Assembly (NCBI RefSeq): GCF_028281565.1
Contig: NZ_JANQJQ010000006.1
Coordinates: 62,001 to 126,000, forward strand
Direction of reading: 5' to 3'
Source: Seonamhaeicola sp.
Lineage (GTDB): Bacteria > Bacteroidota > Bacteroidia > Flavobacteriales > Flavobacteriaceae
Length of the DNA: 64,000 nucleotides
Notes under the pieces: model-generated
The model's database searches: none
The model's input: only the letters and a program-made list of their open reading frames with translations
What the model was told of the DNA's origin: nothing
In this document: positions 1,586 through 60,697 of the stretch, piece by piece
Position numbering within the stretch: position 1 is the first letter of the stretch
Layout: every line of letters begins with the position of its first letter
Program-made: the position numbers and the translations under genes

Positions 1586-1613
1586 GTCATGCTGAACTTG
1601 TTTCAGCATCTCA
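1586..1613 (+). repeat. Palindromic repeat, GTCATGCTGA / GCATCTCA class
   Basis: Reads GTCATGCTGA, a short centre, then TTTCAGCATCTCA. TGCTGAA and TTCAGCA form a perfect 7-bp stem. The head and tail match the element inside metG (30271-30300), and the head is shared with the copies around the GIY-YIG gene. Confidence 0.65.
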
Positions 1614-28702: not shown

Positions 28703-30802
28703 ATGAGTCAACCAAAACGATATACCGTAACCACTGCTTTACCATATACTAACGGCCCCATTCATATTGGGCATTTAGCTGGGGTTTATGTGCCGGCAGA
28801 TATTTATGTACGCTATTTACGCCTGACCGGGAATGATGTGGCCTTTATTGGAGGAAGTGATGAACACGGCGTGCCAATTACCATTAAAGCGAAGAATGAA
28901 GGGGTGTCACCACAGGATATTGTAGATAAATATCATGCCATTATCAAACAATCGTTTGAGGAGTTTGGAATCACTTATGATAATTATTCGCGTACTTCAG
29001 CGCCTATTCACCATAAAACAGCGTCTGATTTCTTTAAAACCCTGTATGACAAAGGTGAATTCATTGAAGAAACCACCGAGCAATTATACGATGAAAAAGC
29101 CAAGCAGTTTTTAGCGGATAGGTTCGTCATTGGGACTTGTCCTAAATGTGGTTATGAGGAGAGTTATGGAGACCAGTGTGAAAACTGCGGAACCAGCCAT
29201 AATGCAACCGATTTGATAAATCCGAAGTCTGCCATTACCGGAAATGCGCCTACATTAAAACAAACAAAGCACTGGTTTTTACCGTTGGATAAACACGAGG
29301 ATTTTTTAAAAGAATGGATCTTAAAAGGCCATAAAAAAGACTGGAAGCCCAATGTGTACGGACAGGTTAAATCCTGGATAGATGATGGTTTGCGTCCACG
29401 TGCCGTAACCCGAGATTTGGATTGGGGCATTCCGGTACCTGTAGAAGGTGGTGAGGGCAAAGTATTGTACGTTTGGTTTGATGCCCCTATCGGGTATATT
29501 TCATCCACCATTGAATGGGCAGAACGCGAAGGGATAGATTGGGAACCCTATTGGAAAGATGAAGACACTAAACTGGTTCATTTTATCGGGAAAGATAACA
29601 TTGTATTTCACTGTATTATTTTCCCGTCCATGTTAAAGGCTGAAGGAAGTTATATTTTACCGGAAAATGTGCCGGCTAATGAGTTTTTAAATTTAGAAGG
29701 CAACAAGCTTTCCACCTCTAAAAATTGGGCCGTTTGGTTGCCGGAGTATTTAAAGGATTTTCCGGGTCAGCAGGATGTGTTACGTTATGCGTTAAATGCC
29801 AATGCGCCGGAGACCAAGGATAACGATTTTACCTGGAAGGATTTTCAGGCCAGGAATAATAATGAGTTGGTAGCGATCTTCGGGAACTTCATAAACCGTG
29901 TGGTAGTGTTAACCAATAAATACTATAATGGTGTTGTTCCTGAAGCAAGTGAATTTACCAAAGTTGATGAGGACACTTTAGCGGCAGTAAAAGCCTATCC
30001 TAATGTGATTGCCAGTTCTATTGAGCGGTATCGTTTTAGGGAAGCTGGACAGGAATTAATGAATTTAGCACGTTTAGGAAACAAATATCTGGCTGATGAA
30101 GAGCCCTGGAAAATGATCAAGGTTGACGAAGCCAGAACGCAAACCATTATGTATGTGGCGCTTCAAATTGCAAGTGCTTTAGCAATGCTATGTGAACCCT
30201 TTTTACCATTTACCGCAGAAAAGCTTAAAAAGATTCTTCGTTTTACTCAGAATGACAAAAAAGATTCCGAATGTCATGCTGAGCTTGTCGAAGCATCTCA
30301 ATGGAACGACATCCCAACAAAGGACGTTTTGTTACCATCAGGACATCAAATTGGTAAAGCAGAATTACTGTTCTCTAAAATTGAAGATGCCACCATTCAG
30401 GCACAACTAGATAAGCTGGAAGCCAGCAGAAAAACCAACGAAAAAGCTAATAAAACTGTGGAGCCTCAAAAAGATACTATTACATTTGAAGATTTTACCA
30501 AATTAGACATGCGTGTAGGTACTATTTTGGAGGCTGAAAAAATGCCAAAAACTAAAAAACTTTTAAAGTTAAAAGTTGATACGGGTATTAATACCAGAAC
30601 GATTGTTTCGGGAATAGCTGAGAGTTTTACTGCAGAAGAAGTTATTGGCAAACGTGTAACGGTTTTGGTGAATTTAGCTCCAAGAGCCTTACGAGGTGTT
30701 GAAAGCCAGGGCATGATCTTAATGACTGAAACTGCCGAGGGGAAATTGGTGTTTGTAAATCCTGATGATGCTTCTGTTGGCAATGGATTGCAAATAAGTT
30801 AA
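28703..30802 (+). CDS. metG: Methionyl-tRNA synthetase with C-terminal tRNA-binding domain and repeat-derived insertion
   Basis: 699 residues. Class I signature [10 protein letters not shown] near the N-terminus, zinc knuckle [18 protein letters not shown] around 148-165, and the KMSKS equivalent NKLSTSKNW. The last 110 residues ([19 protein letters not shown] onward) are the OB-fold tRNA-binding domain found fused to MetRS in many bacteria. Charges tRNA-Met in the cytoplasm. Between the catalytic body and this domain, residues about 510-533 ([20 protein letters not shown]) are encoded by a pair of palindromic repeats in inverted orientation (30231-30300), inserted in frame. Confidence 0.95.
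30231..30300. repeat. Inverted pair of palindromic repeats inside metG
   Basis: Left half 30231-30259 (AGATTCTTCG...CAGAATGACA) is a reverse copy of the GIY-YIG-associated type; right half 30271-30300 (GTCATGCTGAGCTTGTCGAAGCATCTCA) is a forward copy of the type at 1586. The heads face each other, about 11 nt apart. The reading frame is kept through the element. Confidence 0.75.
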
Positions 30803-58616: not shown

Positions 58617-59945
58617 ATGAAACGAGCACTACTAAATATATTAATTTTACTCTTTTTTCCAGCAATTCTCTGGGCACAACATACTATTAAAGGAACATTT
58701 ACACCTGCAGAGGATTATAAAGTGGCGATTTTATATAGGGTGACTCCAACGGTTTCAGAATATATCACAAATGCTGAGATCAAGAGCGATGGCAGCTTTG
58801 AAATGAAACTCGATTCTACAGCCACCAAAGGGATGTACAGACTGGTGTATGCCATTCCCCAGGAAGATTATAATTTCGATATTATTTATAACGGACAGGA
58901 AGACATAGAGCTTACGTTTAACAGAGAAACAGGAGTTAAATTTTTATCTTCTGTTGAGAATAAATTACTGGTATCTTATACCAATAGTATGTCTATGGTA
59001 ACCCATAGTATCGGTAAATTTTTTGGTTCCCAAAGTACAGATACGTTGGCTCTGTCCAAAATTTTTGAAACCCAAAGAGACACACAAAAAAACTACGAAG
59101 AGGCTGCTAAAGAAGGTATTGTATTGGAGTTTATAAAAGGGAACAGGCCGTACATCCCGGAACGTTTTGAAGATGTAAAAACCTATGTAAATAATTTAAA
59201 AGCACATTATTTTGATCATGTAGATTTTACCAATGAGACCTTGCAAAGCTCTAATTTTTTGGAAGAGAAAATGCTGAATTATGTGTTTGGAATGACCATT
59301 AATTCTGATGACGAAATAGTGAATTACAAAAACAATATTGATGTAGTTTGTAACGCCATGAAAGCGGCTCCAAATGGAGTAAAACGTATTTTATTGGTTA
59401 TACTTTGGCAACAGATGGTGGACTTGAATTTTGAAAGTGTTGCTAATTATATTTCTGAAGCGTATTTGATGGATATTGCGGTGATATTAAATGACCAGGC
59501 ATTGTTAAATACCTTAATTACCTTTGAAAATGTCTCTTTAGGAAAAACGGCACCGGATTTTTCGTTTGAAGTTGAAGAAGACGGTAAAAATATAACCAAA
59601 AAATTAAGTGAACTCAAAGACTTTGAAACTTACATTATTGTTTTTTGGAGTAGTACTTGCTCACATTGTTTAGATGAAATTCCCCAGTTACAAACTTTCA
59701 CGAAGACTAAGAATAACATAGGAGTTATAGCTGTAGGCCTGGAAGAAGAGCCTAACGAATGGAAACAACTAATAACCAATTATCCGGACTTTATTCATGT
59801 TTACGGTTTAGGGAAATGGGAAAACGCCATAGGAAATGATTATGGCGTAACAGCAACGCCAACATATTTTATATTAGACAAGGACAAAAAAATTATTGCT
59901 AAACCTGAAGATCTGGAGCATTTAAAGAAGTTTTTTCAGGATTAA
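58617..59945 (+). CDS. Exported thioredoxin-like (TlpA-family) protein
   Basis: 442 residues with signal peptide (LNILILLFFPAILWAQ). A large N-terminal domain (to about 300, of the DUF4369/DUF5106-like kind) is followed by a thioredoxin fold with active site SSTCSHCLDE (C348, C351) and the late cis-Pro TPTYFIL. It probably reduces disulfides of exported proteins in the periplasm. It is downstream of mfd, but a functional link is not expected. Confidence 0.82.
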   Translation: MKRALLNILILLFFPAILWAQHTIKGTFTPAEDYKVAILYRVTPTVSEYITNAEIKSDGSFEMKLDSTATKGMYRLVYAIPQEDYNFDIIYNGQEDIELTFNRETGVKFLSSVENKLLVSYTNSMSMVTHSIGKFFGSQSTDTLALSKIFETQRDTQKNYEEAAKEGIVLEFIKGNRPYIPERFEDVKTYVNNLKAHYFDHVDFTNETLQSSNFLEEKMLNYVFGMTINSDDEIVNYKNNIDVVCNAMKAAPNGVKRILLVILWQQMVDLNFESVANYISEAYLMDIAVILNDQALLNTLITFENVSLGKTAPDFSFEVEEDGKNITKKLSELKDFETYIIVFWSSTCSHCLDEIPQLQTFTKTKNNIGVIAVGLEEEPNEWKQLITNYPDFIHVYGLGKWENAIGNDYGVTATPTYFILDKDKKIIAKPEDLEHLKKFFQD

Positions 59946-59947
59946 CT

Positions 59948-59983
59948 TGTCATTCAGAAGGAGTGGAGCGACTGAAGAATCTC
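59948..59983 (+). repeat. Palindromic repeat, left boundary of GIY-YIG gene
   Basis: TGTCATTCAGAAGGAGTGGA then GCGACTGAAGAATCTC. It starts 3 bp after the TlpA-like gene stop and ends 2 bp before the GIY-YIG stop codon. Inverted relative to the right copy. Confidence 0.7.
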
Positions 59984-59985
59984 TT

Positions 59986-60291
59986 TTAAATCGTATCATT
60001 CAAAAATGCCCAAGATGAATTGAAATTGGTTATCAATGCCTCTTTCTTTTTTCTGCTCCAACCCTTAATTTCTTTTTCTCTTCTTATAGCATCTTCAATT
60101 TCGAAAAAATGCTCATAAAAAATTAAATAGAAGCATCTATATTTAGCGGTAAAAGCTTTTGAATATGGTTCTGGATTTGCATGGAAATATAAGCGTTCTT
60201 TGAGGTTATTAGTTACACCTGTATATAATACGGTTTTGGCCTTATTAGTGAGTATATAAACATAATAATTGTGAGTGCCTTTGGTTTTCAT
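59986..60291 (-). CDS. GIY-YIG nuclease (UPF0213-like), repeat-bounded
   Basis: 101 residues from ATG at 60291. An upstream ATG (60357) would add MLFIIFDLCHSERSEESH, which is just translated repeat and the end of yraN, so it is rejected. GIY-YIG motifs: YYVYILTNKAKTVLYTGVTN, Arg in LKERLYFH, Glu in IEDAIRREKEIKGW. Such small nucleases cut structured DNA. Inverted copies of a palindromic repeat lie 2 and 15 bp from its ends. Function in mobility of the repeat is inferred. Confidence 0.87.
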   Translation of the reverse strand: MKTKGTHNYYVYILTNKAKTVLYTGVTNNLKERLYFHANPEPYSKAFTAKYRCFYLIFYEHFFEIEDAIRREKEIKGWSRKKKEALITNFNSSWAFLNDTI

Positions 60292-60305
60292 TATAATAGA
60301 TATAT

Positions 60306-60333
60306 GAGATTCTTCGCTGCGCTCTGAATGACA
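60306..60333 (-). repeat. Palindromic repeat, right boundary of GIY-YIG gene
   Basis: GAGATTCTTCGCTGCGCTCTGAATGACA, the reverse orientation of the left copy, ending 5 bp before the yraN stop. The two heads (GTCATTCAGA) face outward. Confidence 0.7.
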
Positions 60334-60337
60334 AAGG

Positions 60338-60697
60338 TCAAAAATGATAAAAAGCATCTTCCAAATGCTCTATATTGAATTGATGGCCCTCTTTTACTAC
60401 GGCAATAATATCAAACCGTACTTCTACATCTAAACTGTTTGTAGTTACATAATGATCAACAGCCTTGACCAGACGTTGTATTTGTTTAGGTTTTACAAAA
60501 TCCTGGGGATTCCCGAAGTCTATGGTGGAACGGGTCTTCACCTCGATAACGGCCAGGGTGTCATCCAGTTGCGCCATGATATCAACTTCGGCCTTATCAA
60601 AACGGTAATTGCGTTCTACTATTTGATAGCCTTTTTTAATAAGAAAATCTACCGCCAGTTGTTCCCCTTTATTACCAAGTTTGTTGTGTTGTGCCAT
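60338..60697 (-). CDS. yraN: YraN-family (UPF0102) endonuclease-like protein
   Basis: 119 residues. GNKGEQLAVDFLIKKGYQ, then AEVDIMAQLDD and LAVIEVKTR (PD-(D/E)XK-like nuclease core). A Holliday-junction-type nuclease fold of unclear cellular role. Directly downstream of the metal permease (15 bp) on the minus strand, and followed by the GIY-YIG element. Confidence 0.92.
   Translation of the reverse strand: MAQHNKLGNKGEQLAVDFLIKKGYQIVERNYRFDKAEVDIMAQLDDTLAVIEVKTRSTIDFGNPQDFVKPKQIQRLVKAVDHYVTTNSLDVEVRFDIIAVVKEGHQFNIEHLEDAFYHF

Follow-up and report, generated by a model that had tools for sequence, protein, structure and literature searches.

Known systems in which a small gene is bounded by palindromic repeats include the RAYT (TnpA-REP) REPtrons of the GTAG superfamily, in which the gene encodes a Y1 HUH transposase and the repeats carry a GTAG tag. 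The CGTC REP superfamily was defined by Di Nocera, De Gregorio and Rocco in 2013 (PMC3733652). According to this survey, CGTC REPs occur in five phyla, Bacteroidetes among them, include Neisseria dRS3 and Rickettsia RPE-4 and RPE-6, and "apparently lack a dedicated transposase" (PMC3733652). It states that no tyrosine transposase is flanked by CGTC REPs and that other transposase classes are only fortuitously associated with them, and reports that REPtrons have been lost by deletion in some species, the REPs remaining (PMC3733652). Among the papers listed by searches of PubMed Central full text, none links GIY-YIG genes to REPs.

The window analysed here is a 64,000-nt stretch of the Seonamhaeicola sp. 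genome (contig NZ_JANQJQ010000006.1, positions 62,001 to 126,000). It contains a GIY-YIG gene on the minus strand (ATG at 60289-60291, stop at 59986-59988) that is enclosed by two complete ORFs, both converging on the site, and bounded on each side by a REP unit (Table 1). The flanking palindromes are of the (T)GTCA type and are inverted with their GTC ends outward, the opposite orientation described in the initial annotation. Their stems begin with AT but are interrupted, the tail is CTC, and the tag is (T)GTC or TGTC, not the GTAG of RAYT REPs. Gene and repeats are separated by 2 bp on the 3' side, as had been stated, and by 14 bp on the 5' side, where 15 bp had been given. The unit was also said to lie within a few bases of the ends of both flanking genes; the measured distances are 3 bp between the stop of the thioredoxin-like gene and one tag, and 5 bp between the stop of the other neighbour and the nearer REP unit. 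The latter gene, which we take to be yraN (UPF0102)-like, is present in 27/30 relatives. Close relatives of the GIY-YIG gene also adjoin yraN in Winogradskyella thalassocola and in a Lutibacter MAG, on different sides.

Table 1. Positions of the GIY-YIG gene, its neighbours and the REP units described in the 64,000-nt window (position 1 is the first nucleotide of the window).
Feature	Position	Strand	Sequence or basis
REP unit, 3' side of GIY-YIG gene, long type, GTC tag outward	59949..59983	+	GTCATTCAGAAGGAGTGGAGCGACTGAAGAATCTC, sequence; dispersed class copies
Single-domain GIY-YIG nuclease gene (predicted), 101 aa, ATG start	59986..60291	-	PF01541, conserved columns, AlphaFold2
REP unit, 5' side of GIY-YIG gene, short type, GTC tag outward	60306..60332	-	GTCATTCAGAGCGCAGCGAAGAATCTC, sequence; dispersed class copies
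Left neighbour, thioredoxin-like gene, convergent with yraN	58617..59945	+	name read from sequence
Right neighbour, putative yraN (UPF0102)-like gene	60338..60697	-	present in 27/30 relatives
REP unit of GTCATTCNGA class, first half of in-frame metG pair	30230..30256	-	
REP unit of related class (GTCATGCTGAGCTTGTCGAAGCATCTC), second half of metG pair	30273..30299	+	
Solitary REP unit, CTGAAC class (class flanking paralogs L003 and L007)	1586..1612	+	

The only Pfam match of the encoded protein is to the GIY-YIG family (PF01541, E 2.3e-16), with no match to the Y1 (HUH, single tyrosine) transposases. AlphaFold2 models it as one confident domain (mean pLDDT 92.8), and in a fold search the top PDB match is the UPF0213 entry 1zg2, which alone falls below E 0.001, followed by Slx1 and the N-terminal domain of UvrC. 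Five residues (Y13, Y24, G26, R34 and E73) are invariant across 19 GIY-YIG sequences from several phyla, and H38 and N92 are at least 90% conserved in the same comparison. By reference to I-TevI and UvrC, these conserved Y, Y, G, R, H, E and N columns are presumably the catalytic residues. Sequence and modelled fold assign the protein to the UPF0213-type GIY-YIG nucleases, and DNA cleavage is its predicted activity. GIY-YIG enzymes hydrolyse DNA; to our knowledge they have no strand-joining activity. The locus has no match in the defence, phage-family and NCBIfam libraries or, over 900 bp, in Rfam, and a weak GIY-YIG match is present in 1 of 50,697 phage records.

The window repeat is dispersed in the genome. 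The pattern GTCATTCNGAN{5,30}GAAGAATCT has 43 exact matches in 5.27 Mb and the reversed control pattern has 0, so the repeat is not a product of chance. Recurrence of the repeat class within the window, including inside metG, had been noted and is borne out by the in-frame pair at 30230-30299, within the ORF at 28703-30802; the window also has a solitary unit of a related class (Table 1). The name metG was given to this ORF in the initial annotation and agrees with its sequence. The metG linker appears to be a hot spot, as judged by eye: all six of six congeners hold in-frame REPs or remnants there, of classes other than the window's, and the linkers of three more distant family members are without REPs. 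Elsewhere in the genome, a gene-less miniature, the REPIN at C30:19484-19556, shares both of its unlike ends with the GIY-YIG unit of the window, and 14 bp separate these ends. Several copies exist of a chimeric repeat in which CACTGAG..GAAGTG lies within GTCATTCTGA..GAAGAATCT (e.g. C30:6639-6676 and C41:163967-164005); this composite REP seems to have multiplied.

The same genome carries 12 clear GIY-YIG paralogs, two of which are interrupted by a stop codon within the aligned region. The paralog search yielded 13 matches with an E value of at most 1, the weakest at 0.46, and a profile search gave 14 matches. The palindromes flanking the paralogs fall into different classes (TTCAGA, TTGCGA, CTGAAC, TTTCCGC, CTGAGCGCAGTCGA and others), and for most paralogs the class is not that of the window. 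A 464-kb sample, composed of the window and twenty 20-kb stretches chosen round the paralogs and thus not random, contains 67 REP-like units. Outward-facing units lie within 150 nt on both sides of 8/10 GIY-YIG genes and 2/408 other ORFs in this sample, a comparison biased toward the GIY-YIG genes because the unit queries were taken from their own flanks. With a query-free alignment score of at least 30, the counts are 7/10 and 6/408.

A wider survey used loci found by protein alone, comprising the best 80 of at least 562; three of these 80 were dropped for short flanks. The 200 nt upstream of each gene were aligned to the reverse complement of the 200 nt downstream, with a cut-off score of 30. 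This score is reached at 44/77 GIY-YIG loci and by 6/188 other ORFs of those loci; mismatched GIY-YIG flanks reach it in 53/759 cases, because the repeats resemble each other. When loci are grouped by record title and 220-nt flanks are used, the counts are 26/42 in Bacteroidota, 7/21 in Clostridia and 10/14 in others (43/77 in all). An enlarged set, consisting of the first survey together with relatives, Alphaproteobacteria and plasmid records (116 genomes or records), has matching inverted repeats at 111/169 unique loci as opposed to 9/288 control ORFs (Fisher p 4e-51), and at least three of these nine control matches are themselves such repeats. The matching pair is absent at 58/169 GIY-YIG loci, and newly drawn alphaproteobacterial loci are flanked in 11 of 18 cases. 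The usual matched unit, by eye, is (C/T)GTCAT-NNN-GA..loop..GA-N'N'N'-ATC(T/C), in which the NNN triplets compensate, and a few matched pairs are without a GTC tag (e.g. L282). These counts, with the 8/10 against 2/408 of the Seonamhaeicola genome, answer the question raised in the initial annotation of whether GIY-YIG genes are flanked more often than other genes, and rule out chance flanking of the kind that any gene might have.

The same figures bear on the possibility that the repeats are ordinary terminators or mRNA-stability elements at gene ends and that a small gene has come to lie between two of them by chance. The palindromic form of the REPs is compatible with such a role, as is their position, since 60 of the 67 units in the 464-kb sample lie outside ORFs of at least 100 aa (7 inside) despite the 86% of the sample that these ORFs occupy. 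However, genes other than GIY-YIG are rarely flanked on both sides, at the rates given above, and short control ORFs (<150 aa) fare no differently (3/104), which makes this explanation extremely unlikely. Separately, AT-rich background dominated the result when palindromes preceded by any 3-mer tag were sought, and GTCA did not stand out. In genome G009, the GIY-YIG units L023 and L031 are nearly identical (96.6% over 522 bp) and have, in place of REPs, apparent pieces of tRNA-Val at their ends, as judged by eye; they possibly represent a tRNA-targeting relative.

REP class co-varies with GIY-YIG nuclease lineage after genome effects are removed. Among 122 loci with a flank score of at least 26, repeat similarity was taken only between the upstream flank of one locus and the downstream flank of another, so that shared neighbours cannot create it. 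Similarity rises with protein identity (Mantel rho 0.288; no more than 0.079 in any of 300 permutations). In 736 comparisons, against 479 with the opposite outcome, the more similar repeat belongs to the closest paralog; these comparisons are not independent of one another. Shared base composition may contribute part of the Mantel signal, an effect that permutation within genomes removes. In this second test, limited to the 60 loci from genomes with at least two, the mean of each genome pair was subtracted and values were permuted among paralogs; the genome-pair-centred r is 0.299 (null SD 0.042) and is reached by 0/1000 permutations.

Three Y1-transposase (RAYT-like) matches are present in the Seonamhaeicola genome, one with stops and one weak, in a 507-aa frame. 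They sit between palindromes unlike the GTCA class (GATAGCGCGGATTTGTAATCCGTGCC and others). A single GTCA-type unit occurs at each of two of these loci, over 1.1 kb away from the Y1 match. Two REP systems with separate repeats appear to coexist in this genome. A RAYT as the mover of its GTCA repeats finds no support, the Y1 loci having other palindromes. More generally, a different enzyme, either Y1/RAYT or a DDE transposase, could move the repeats and the GIY-YIG gene could be their cargo or helper. Such an arrangement would agree with the presence of Y1 matches and of the two distant GTCA-type units, with the strand joining that GIY-YIG enzymes are not known to perform, and with the absence of the gene from some REP-rich genomes (see below). 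It is nevertheless very unlikely, as the three Y1 matches lie among different palindromes and a cargo role leaves the match between repeat class and nuclease lineage unexplained. The CGTC survey, with no tyrosine transposase flanked by these REPs and only fortuitous associations for other classes, also argues against it (PMC3733652).

In seven distinct pairs of loci the GIY-YIG units are similar and the flanks diverge; two of these pairs are clean at both ends. The Hymenobacter pair L072/L117 is 76% identical over 411 bp, from CGTCATGTCG to ACATGACG, with unrelated flanks, and L028/L040, from two congeners, are 78% identical over 378 bp, a match that starts at TTGTCATTCC and runs a few bases beyond the inverted end. 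In neither pair do the neighbouring ORFs show homology, other ORF matches being only 17-27 aa in length, and the gene of L040 has an internal stop. Identity ends at the tag on one side only in L175/L186 and L003/L043, and similarity does not end at the tags in L230/L238, L053 (two copies in one locus) and L023/L031. Inspection by eye of the four sites L072, L117, L028 and L040 revealed no target duplication beside the tags.

Gene-free sites occur in several lineages. By eye, the yraN-trx site is without the unit in G006 and G003; in G002 it contains two paired REPs of another class but no gene, and other genomes have decayed REPs there. The unit is absent between sufB and sufC in three relatives of an Azospirillum that has it, and between fnrL and fixJ in four strains of Sphingobium. 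Two of these four strains retain one fused palindrome, which may be a deletion scar; some gene-free sites would then be losses. A 50-kb Sphingobium stretch has, by eye, no clear REPs other than the unit's own two. Three stretches from near-identical Sinorhizobium meliloti strains contained no insertion or deletion inside aligned blocks, and their one differing segment gave no usable footprint; no transposition event was seen among these strains. The initial annotation had asked for empty sites in relatives and for insertion or loss as a unit. Presence and absence of the unit as a whole is seen: gene-free sites occur in congeners, Azospirillum and Sphingobium, and in the two species pairs the units occupy unrelated sites and their identity stops at the tags.

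These sites also allow a homing-like process to be weighed, in which a double-strand break made by the nuclease at certain sites leads to the REP-bounded unit being copied in by repair from another allele or locus, and the repeats are remains of the repair joints. GIY-YIG is a known homing-enzyme fold, and certain sites seem to be re-used, namely the metG linker (6/6 congeners) and the yraN-trx site, both with other REP classes by eye. However, units lie at unrelated sites without a shared flank, gene-less units are dispersed over the genome, and homing would require an occupied homologous allele. This process is unlikely to account for the locus.

Two observations concern the place of insertion. 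In the yraN-trx spacer of G005 (L148), a REP (GTCACACT..GTGT) lies apparently exactly in the loop of another (CTGAACT|TGTTTCAG), and in L117 (Hymenobacter sp. 15J16-1T3B) a perfect inverted repeat runs ~38 nt past the tags. These two cases suggested that units insert into the centre of another palindrome. The idea was examined at 95 loci, where symmetry averages 7.01 matches in 20 compared with a null mean of 5.19. It was not adopted, because the strongest cases except L117 (L215, L214, L010 and, lower, L237) look like mis-called tags, and the figure of 7.01 includes these suspect loci. A scan of 1.83 Mb for nested REPs gave 29 matches and no clear series.

The repeats around alphaproteobacterial GIY-YIG genes connect these loci with the CGTC superfamily. 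Many of the flank units are textbook CGTC REPs, sharing the tag, the AT-starting stem, the short loop and the CCA tail. One example, CGTCATCCCCGCGAAGGCGGGGATCCAG (L208), has an 8-bp stem, a loop of 4 and a CCA tail, and fits the form of the superfamily (8-9 bp stem from AT, loop of 4-5, tail mostly CCA). The unpaired end of CGTC REPs is CGTC, TGTC or CCTC; it is CGTC in the alphaproteobacterial flanks and TGTC in the window. The window units differ from typical members in their weaker stems and CTC tail, and resemble them in that their classes are dispersed and mostly extragenic (67 units in 464 kb, 43 exact copies genome-wide). Pairing and covariation were found in 16 of 17 units from a palindrome scan, 15 alphaproteobacterial and one from Neisseria (0.433, compared with 0.170 shuffled; 0/500), a score that is no independent proof as the units were preselected as palindromes. 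The gene of Azospirillum lipoferum 4B is situated between sufB and sufC and has a full REPIN on either side, and that of a Neisseria gonorrhoeae record is surrounded by CGTCATTCCCGC..GCGGGAAT units, taken to be dRS3. A relative is present in 32 records of the plasmid collection, and 10 of the 11 that were fetched are flanked (score at least 36); the gene of Rhizobium tumorigenes (L235) is unflanked.

Gene and repeats also tend to occur in the same genomes. A covariance model (R1), built in part from the 41 Alphaproteobacteria to which it was then applied, finds at least 10 CGTC REPs in 8 of them; the gene is present in 8/8 of these and in 11/33 of the others. In 82 newly drawn genomes, the gene is present in 9/14 REP-rich genomes and 19/68 others (one-sided p 0.012), or in 14/25 and 14/57 when a single REP suffices (p 0.0065). 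For all 123 genomes the figures are 17/22 and 30/101. The 82 are the rest of the 123-genome draw if all 41 earlier genomes were included in it, as their handle numbers imply, and REP counts throughout are lower bounds, the best candidates alone having been scored. Five genomes (G086, G089, G138, G149 and G063) have from 6 to at least 60 CGTC REPs and a single GIY-YIG match each, in a 630-706-aa frame taken as UvrC. Genome G051 has REPs and no GIY-YIG match, and G125 has three small diverged GIY-YIG genes, of which the two examined are both unflanked. Some REP-rich genomes without the gene may be incomplete.

Based on these observations, the window locus is probably one autonomous minimal mobile unit, a RAYT-like REP system with a GIY-YIG nuclease at its core, for which binding, cutting and movement are inferred. 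The initial annotation had proposed a non-Y1 REP system with GIY-YIG in the position of the RAYT, and this proposal gains support from the flanking excess, the presence and absence of the unit, and the separate palindromes of the Y1 genes. As to the mobilising role that it suggested, the association with repeats is confirmed and the nuclease itself remains the presumed mover.

In such a system, the nuclease would recognise both the unpaired GTC tag and its palindrome, the latter folded into a single-stranded hairpin during replication or repair. Hairpin recognition is plausible because the fold is near those of structure-specific nucleases. The enzyme would then cut at the tag boundary of both inverted units, as Slx1-like enzymes cut branched DNA, and host repair and ligation would seal the donor site and insert the released unit at a new position, with no target duplication; joining, we infer, must come from the host. 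Gene-less pairs would be served in trans. Like the single palindromes, they would be non-autonomous derivatives, related to the full unit in the way that REPs and REPINs are related to RAYT genes. Each nuclease lineage would have to recognise its own palindrome, so that repeat class and nuclease evolve together.

The GIY-YIG gene is a strong candidate for the enzyme, so far missing, behind the spread of one of the two large families of palindromic repeats in bacteria. In its broadest form, the hypothesis is that single-domain GIY-YIG proteins are unrecognised mobility enzymes creating and spreading CGTC-type REPs in many phyla by structure-specific hydrolytic cutting and host joining, and that REPs were invented twice, on the basis of two unrelated nucleases; the balance of the evidence tips slightly in its favour. 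The CGTC-type set would cover the dRS3-type repeats and the GTCA repeats of Bacteroidota described above, and perhaps Rickettsia RPE and rhizobial RIME. A testable enzyme for these REPs would give REP systems a second, independent origin, and would point to a function for a family whose members often carry no annotation beyond "GIY-YIG nuclease family protein". Relatives of CGTC-type repeats lie even within a tRNA-synthetase gene here.

Among known proteins, the closest in fold and length are the UPF0213 and other single-domain GIY-YIG proteins (PDB 1zg2 and 1ywl), whose entry names state neither a function nor an association with repeats. Slx1 and UvrC share the fold and the active-site pattern. 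They are larger repair enzymes, and we know of no case in which their genes are bounded by repeats. The GIY-YIG homing endonucleases likewise employ the nuclease domain as a selfish gene, but no intron or intein is seen at the window locus, which has dispersed repeats as its bounds. The locus also resembles the RAYT REPtron, in which one small nuclease gene likewise lies between inverted tagged palindromes. Both systems include dispersed REPs, gene-less pairs and, within one genome, several repeat classes that have a separate gene each, and in both gene and repeat co-vary. The two differ in the enzyme, GIY-YIG here in place of the Y1 HUH transposase, and in the tag, (C/T)GTC in place of GTAG.
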